From assembly GCA_001803795.1 (NCBI GenBank), contig MHEK01000053.1:15332-52789 (forward strand): DNA of 37,458 bases. Direction: 5' to 3'. Below, one piece after another: positions 1,520 through 3,411 of this stretch. The number at the start of each line of letters is the position of its first letter. Position 1 is the stretch's first letter. The position numbers and the translations under genes were made by a program. The stretch is from Nitrospirae bacterium RBG_16_64_22 (GTDB lineage Bacteria; Nitrospirota; RBG-16-64-22). The notes under the pieces were generated by a model. That model had not been told where the DNA came from and did not search any database. It was given only the letters and a program-made list of their open reading frames with translations.

Positions 1520-1597
1520 GGCCGCTCCTGATGGGGCGCGACGCGGCGCGAGATTAGGATTGCTGAGCCGTCACGACCGGCGGCTTGCCTAGACCCC

Positions 1598-1813
1598 TCA
1601 CGTTCCGCCGAAGCCGACGGCCGTTCGCCCGTTCTCCTCGACGATGACGGGAACGTTCCGCCCTCCTCCGGTGACGGCGAGCATGCGGGCCATGGCGTCC
1701 GGGTCGTCCTTGATGTTGACGTATTCGATCGTGAATCCGCGCTGGGCGAAGTCCTCACGGGCTCGCGTCGTGTACGGTCAGGTGTCTTTGCCGTAGATGG
1801 TGACCTTGGGCAT
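1598..1813 (-). CDS. Glutaredoxin-like selenoprotein with in-frame UGA (Sec12)
   Basis: Read through one UGA (1778-1780, codon 12), the frame from ATG 1813 to TGA 1598 gives 71 residues starting MPKVTIYGKDT-U-PYTTRARE. The UGA falls exactly where glutaredoxins have the first active-site Cys (CPYC/CPYT). The rest is intact: N-terminal beta strand KVTIY, the cis-Pro segment NVPVIV near residue 55, and the glutathione-binding turn GFGGT at the C-terminus. An SD (AGGGAG) precedes the ATG. A hairpin with the right spacing to act as a bacterial SECIS lies just after the UGA. Sec-containing glutaredoxin relatives are known; I recall the NCBI label Uxx-star glutaredoxin-like (seleno)protein. Expected role: thiol/disulfide or peroxide redox chemistry in the cytoplasm. 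Ordinary gene callers stop at the UGA and miss it. A pseudogene is the alternative, but no other lesion is present. Confidence 0.85.
1746..1766 (-). promoter_or_regulatory. Candidate bacterial SECIS hairpin
   Basis: The hairpin begins 11 nt after the UGA (minus strand). The stem is GCGA/UCGC, then G-C with a bulged U, one C/A mismatch, CC/GG, and a GUGA tetraloop. The loop is about 19-22 nt from the UGA, inside the range used by SelB-dependent bacterial SECIS elements, and has GU at the apex. I assigned it by eye, without a folding program. Confidence 0.5.
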
Positions 1814-1868
1814 CGGGATTCTCCCTGCTGAAAGATGAACGCTCTTTTACCAGACGCGGGGCGGGGCG

Positions 1869-2784: not shown

Positions 2785-3411
2785 TCACCACTCCGCAAAG
2801 AGGACGTCGGTCTCGACCTTGACCGGGATACGGCTCATGGGCCGGTTGCCGCTTTTGACGCACGCGCCGCTTCGGGGATCGAACTCCCAATGATGGCCGG
2901 GGCAGACGATGTTCCCCGCCTCGTTCTGCTGGAGGGGGATCTTCGTCTTTCGGTGGGGGCAATGATCGTCGAACACAAGGGCGCTTCCGTTCCGGCGGAC
3001 AACGATCACCGTTCTGTCCTCGACGGTCCGCCAGGCGGGGCGCTCCTCCGGGAATTCGCTCAAGGGTCCGATCCGGTGCCAGTCCGCCGGGCGGCCCAGG
3101 TTCTCAGCGCGGAACTCGGGAAGGTCCATCGAGAGCAGAACGTCAACGGCGCTCAGGACCTTCGTGAGGCCCGCCGCCGGGAAGGCGCAAAGGATGGCGT
3201 CGAGAATCTCGTTCGGCGTCGCCCCGGCTTCGATGGCGCGCGGAAGGTACTGTTTGAGACCCCGCTCGCTTCCCGTCACGACCTTCGTGACGACCGAGAT
3301 GATCCAGCGCGTCTTCGGGTCGAGGTGGCGCGCCGATTCCTTGAGGAACTTGAGGTAGTGCCCCATCGCTTCAGGGCGGACCTTGGCAAGATAGTCGAGG
3401 GCTTCGCTCAT
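2785..3411 (-). CDS. Carboxymuconolactone decarboxylase-like protein fused to a Rieske [2Fe-2S] domain
   Basis: The 208-residue protein has two domains. Residues ~1-95 resemble the carboxymuconolactone decarboxylase/AhpD fold (VVTGSERGLKQYLPRAIEAGATPNEILDAILCAFPAAG), but the AhpD CxxC redox pair is missing; only Cys75 is present. Residues ~105-208 are a Rieske ferredoxin domain with both cluster-binding boxes, Cys151-Pro-His153 and Cys170-x2-His173, in the spacing of soluble Rieske ferredoxins and NirD-like proteins. It has no signal peptide or membrane segment, so it should be cytoplasmic. It sits 40 nt downstream of the C39-like gene and probably shares its mRNA. The substrate cannot be named. 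The first domain may be an adaptor or alpha-helical scaffold rather than an active decarboxylase. Confidence 0.82.
   Translation of the reverse strand: MSEALDYLAKVRPEAMGHYLKFLKESARHLDPKTRWIISVVTKVVTGSERGLKQYLPRAIEAGATPNEILDAILCAFPAAGLTKVLSAVDVLLSMDLPEFRAENLGRPADWHRIGPLSEFPEERPAWRTVEDRTVIVVRRNGSALVFDDHCPHRKTKIPLQQNEAGNIVCPGHHWEFDPRSGACVKSGNRPMSRIPVKVETDVLFAEW

Follow-up and report, generated by a model that had tools for sequence, protein, structure and literature searches.

Glutaredoxin-like selenoproteins have already been described under several names. The closest to the gene treated here is UXX-star family 1, which is given with a UxxT motif and two selenocysteine (Sec) residues in Table 1 of a 2026 review (PMC13188914), and the Distant Grx-like protein 1 of a 2022 review (PMC9312934) has a UxxT motif as well. 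The 2026 review considers that the Sec residues of UXX-star proteins may act as metal-binding ligands, and it cites Haft and Tolstoy 2025 for UXX-star family 2 and for the HUGP/GUXX-star fusion.

Our gene is on the minus strand of the window, i.e., the whole stretch of 37,458 nucleotides of Nitrospirae bacterium RBG_16_64_22 that was analysed. With UXX-star family 1 (NCBIfam NF041114) and Distant Grx-like protein 1 it shares a full-length profile match, the UxxT motif, two predicted Sec and a length of about 70 aa. With the cGrx of Clostridium oremlandii, which is of the UxxC type, it has in common the glutaredoxin fold and Sec at the nucleophilic position, and the structural matches to the window protein include 7c10 and 4tr1, both of cGrx; unlike cGrx, it has UxxT and lacks the resolving Cys, its C-terminus is truncated, and a second Sec is predicted close to that end. 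Glutaredoxin 3, YruB and mycoredoxin share the fold, the Y-x-K-x-x-C-P-Y motif, the cis-Pro in VP and the GG, but they are Cys proteins with a final helix.

The gene, its family, the two conserved UGAs, the Sec machinery of the genome and the class of fold are all read from sequence, and on this basis we are highly confident that positions 1589–1813 (minus strand) are a two-Sec member of UXX-star selenoprotein family 1.

Gene, reading frame and 3′ end

The features of the locus are as follows, with the basis of each in brackets.

1589–1813, minus strand: complete gene of a UXX-star family 1 selenoprotein with two predicted Sec, 74 aa and a UAG stop (frame, profile, homologues)
1821–1826, minus strand: Shine-Dalgarno-like AGGGAG, 7 nt ahead of the ATG (sequence)
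1778–1780, minus strand: UGA1, predicted Sec12, where glutaredoxin has its catalytic cysteine; motif T-U-P-Y-T (UGA or Cys in the loci compared)
1746–1766, minus strand: candidate SECIS 1, GCGAG-C-CC-GUGA-GG-A-C-UUCGC (fold and 27 loci; weak in the window sequence)
1598–1600, minus strand: UGA2, predicted Sec72, taken as the stop codon by the first-pass annotation (UGA in the loci compared; the NF041114 profile continues to it)
1589–1591, minus strand: UAG, the actual stop (shared by the three members of the genus)
1566–1585, minus strand: candidate SECIS 2 hairpin, AGCCG-C-CG-GUCG-UG-A-CGGCU, past the stop codon (covariation in relatives)

When UGA is translated as U, the stretch from 1813 to 1598 gives MPKVTIYGKDTUPYTTRAREDFAQRGFTIEYVNIKDDPDAMARMLAVTGGGRNVPVIVEENGRTAVGFGGT, followed by UGA. 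The first-pass annotation had recognized in it a glutaredoxin-like protein with UGA at the catalytic cysteine position, preceded by a Shine-Dalgarno sequence, and both points are borne out. It had also described the frame as complete in 71 residues with one UGA, of which UGA1 stands and the 3′ end does not, as reading through the UGA at 1598–1600 adds U-G-V before the UAG. The corrected end of the 74-aa product is thus …VGFGGT-U-GV. Two annotation errors are mended in this way: a gene finder halting at UGA1 yields nothing, and reading UGA1 alone loses the second Sec.

Upstream of the gene is panC (ending at 1869), and downstream is an open reading frame at 446–1519 that encodes a c-di-GMP-binding domain of MshEN type (NF053729, above cut-off), corresponding to the N-terminal part of PilB only. 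Elsewhere in the window, the frame at 2785–3411 has an N-terminal part that looks AhpD/CMD-like by eye, joined to a ferredoxin domain of Rieske type (AndAb/NirD-like). Further Sec-like UGAs were looked for in a crude scan of the window, which, judged by eye, returned only chance-looking frames.

Family membership

Profile scoring against NCBIfam was done with C in place of U. The protein reaches 103.9 bits against NF041114, "UXX-star selenoprotein family 1" (curated cut-off 72, E 3.9e-30), with a match covering positions 1–68 of the 70 in the profile; the next profile is that of the wider family, NF041212 (85.1 bits, cut-off 66), and Pfam gives a glutaredoxin match with E 1.8e-11. For the YruB, mycoredoxin and Grx3 profiles, the scores of the protein are far below the cut-offs of those families. 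Both traits of NF041114 are present in the sequence, with a UGA at codon 12 for the Sec of the active-site UxxT (here TUPYT) and an in-frame UGA at codon 72 for the predicted second Sec. That Sec-containing glutaredoxin-like proteins are a known kind had been anticipated in the first-pass annotation, which missed that the protein falls into a named family with two Sec. The protein is not a classical dithiol glutaredoxin of CPxC or UxxC type, since Thr15, invariant in the 29 sequences compared, replaces the resolving Cys. The genome was also searched for NF041115, the two-Sec UxxU metal-binding protein, with only sub-cut-off matches that contain no stops.

Two features set the genus of the window apart: the middle part of the protein is longer by about three residues than in most members of NF041114 in the phylum, and SECIS 2 is less regular than in other members of the family.

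Conservation of the two UGA codons

A search across the phylum (396 genomes) found dozens of matches whose aligned region contains two TGAs, and 29 loci, the window's own included, were read from the phylum. Every one of them has UGA at site 2. At site 1, 27 have UGA, and the remaining two, L014 (1489-1716) and L018 (1498-1707), have Cys. As these two loci keep UGA at site 2, one Sec position can change without the other. Beyond the 29 loci, L028:1486-1770 in genome G353 retains UGA at site 2 and has UAA at site 1, which may be an error, decay or something else. A match on a Thalassospira contig (L053) was rejected as a chance match, the motif being absent.

Aside from that UAA, the homologues do not carry random stops but UGA, or Cys, at exactly site 1. 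The three genomes of the window's genus agree fully at both UGAs and at the stop. Comparison with two congeners gives a dN/dS of about 0.16 and 0.33 downstream of UGA1, from few sites, which indicates mainly synonymous change. This, together with the same position being kept in 27 of 29 loci, means that UGA1 is not there by chance. Regarding the cis-Pro and GFGG motifs that had been called conserved, the alignment shows no variation in VP or in the last G of the GG, nor at the two U positions.

It could be argued that a Cys codon has turned into UGA in a decaying glutaredoxin gene, or that the UGA is a sequencing error, since UGC and UGU are one base from UGA and the genome is a draft (89% completeness, 118 contigs). 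Nevertheless, the same two UGAs occur in the three congeneric genomes and across the phylum, dN/dS is below 1 after UGA1 and the genome has a full Sec machinery, so that we give this explanation practically no weight.

Another reading accepts UGA1 as Sec and takes the UGA at 1598–1600 as the real terminator of a single-Sec protein of 71 residues ending in GFGGT. UGA normally terminates translation, after all, the UAG comes only two sense codons later, and the hairpin beyond it is imperfect in the window. Against this, every one of the 29 loci has the UGA, after it G-V or something similar, and then a second stop (UAA, UAG or UGA), a covarying hairpin is found downstream in relatives, the NF041114 profile reaches UGA2 and the family is recorded with two Sec in PMC13188914. 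We therefore regard termination at UGA2 as improbable, and the two-Sec reading is the one followed below.

Selenocysteine machinery

The genes selA, selB, selC and selD, whose absence had been named beforehand as a reason for discarding a selenoprotein, are all in the genome. The tRNA-Sec gene selC scores 78 bits, over the cut-off, and ARAGORN also reports tRNA-SeC with anticodon tca. SelA (602 bits) adjoins SelB (367 bits, cut-off 242), in which the C-terminal wing domain was found. There are two SelD genes, of 392 and 379 bits, with one in-frame TGA in each; one of the frames reads SHGSGUACKLGPELL, and the second selD match, with its single in-frame TGA, is on contig C117 (loci L059, G000:C58:25500-28200, and L044). 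GSGUACK is what we take to be the usual Sec site of SelD, and a SelD with Sec there implies that the genome uses Sec independently of the window gene.

SECIS candidates

The 5-bp stem of SECIS 1 is paired in 89.6% of the cells across 27 loci. Its covariation score is above all 500 column shuffles, with double changes in two pairs only, so the covariation evidence is modest given the coding constraint. The SECIS-like hairpin of the first-pass annotation does exist after UGA1, but it is weak in the window, where the folds following this codon are not more stable than shuffles (z of +0.10 for 44 nt and −1.67 for 65 nt). Rfam gave no SECIS match.

The clearest SECIS evidence for this gene lies downstream of the second UGA. 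In most loci, the SECIS 2 hairpin starts about 10–12 nt past UGA2, which puts it beyond the stop codon, in the 3′ untranslated region; judged from the sequences, this position is likely. In 28 of 29 loci the hairpin is more stable than its own shuffles are on average (mean −10.5 vs −6.2 kcal/mol). Each of the seven pairs shows compensatory changes, in 33 cells compared with 9.7 ± 2.7 after shuffling, although the choice of hairpins by stability for each sequence favours pairing and inflates it somewhat. Controls slid along the alignment gave 2–7 such cells, far fewer than 33. The loops mostly contain GU or GG (e.g., GGUC, AGUUU).

In the window, SECIS 2 has one C-A mismatch and keeps seven of the eight pairs that its congeners L015 and L017 form; owing to this mismatch a pure stem search did not pick it up (row L010). 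Compared with shuffles, none of the window's own hairpins at the two sites stands out (z +0.10, −0.40 and −0.41). A covariance model of SECIS 2 built from other genera, with the genus of the window left out, scored the window hairpin at 4.8 bits (E 1.8). In congeners, other GC-rich hairpins obtain higher scores from this model, so it is too small to discriminate and was set aside.

Fold and possible function

AlphaFold2, run with the 29 sequences, gives a beta-alpha-beta-alpha-beta-beta arrangement with a mean pLDDT of 83.7. The best PDB matches are glutaredoxins, such as Brucella Grx (TM 0.75) and cGrx2 (0.70), and the model points to a minimal glutaredoxin fold in which the last helix is absent. 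Sec12 occupies the position of the nucleophilic Cys and Thr15 the resolving position. The conserved GG of glutaredoxins is part of the glutathione-binding region, and Sec72 is two residues past the GG.

What we infer concerns the translation of both UGAs, the pairing of Sec12 with Sec72 and the substrate. SelB and Sec-tRNA-Sec would decode the UGA at codon 12 and then that at codon 72, in both cases under the direction of a bacterial SECIS hairpin shortly downstream; the second hairpin would be past the UAG, in the 3′ untranslated region, yet not too far from the UGA when the latter is in the decoding site. In the product, Sec12 would substitute for the nucleophilic Cys and Thr would occupy the resolving position, and Sec12 and Sec72 might be joined by an internal selenyl link. 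As another option, both Sec might bind a soft metal(loid) or a thiol cofactor.

The latter leads to a reading that competes on function only, not on the gene, in which the product is a carrier of soft metals or metalloids (Hg, As, Cu or similar on two selenols) and not a redox enzyme. The metal-binding role allowed for Sec in UXX-star proteins (PMC13188914) and the Thr at the resolving position, which speaks against a classic dithiol site, agree with it, but there are no metal-resistance genes among the neighbours, be it in the window (panC and the MshEN-type frame) or in the relatives, where they are mixed (panC, isochorismatase, NusG, arginase, M16 peptidase and others). In our opinion, a carrier is conceivable but rather unlikely. 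The gene neighbourhoods of the window and its relatives have no conserved context pointing to a substrate. We think that the product is most likely a thiol/selenol oxidoreductase, and hold this function, with reasonable though not strong confidence, over metal carriage.

Conclusions

The first-pass interpretation of the locus as a selenoprotein is supported as right in kind, although it was incomplete. The gene belongs to a family that is already catalogued, and the case is real but largely ordinary. Only tentatively do we propose something less ordinary, namely that in this family a gene of 225 nt might combine one SECIS in the coding region with one wholly in the 3′ untranslated region, the second evolving free of coding constraint, as its covariation suggests, and that the two selenols of the minimal glutaredoxin fold might form a Sec-Sec centre within the molecule. 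No discussion of a 3′-untranslated location of the second SECIS was found in a search of the literature that was not exhaustive.

The value of the family is that of a compact test case for the recoding of two UGAs within 60 codons of one mRNA, with UGA2 only two sense codons ahead of the stop. It is also one for the question of whether bacteria can use a SECIS that is located in the 3′ untranslated region.
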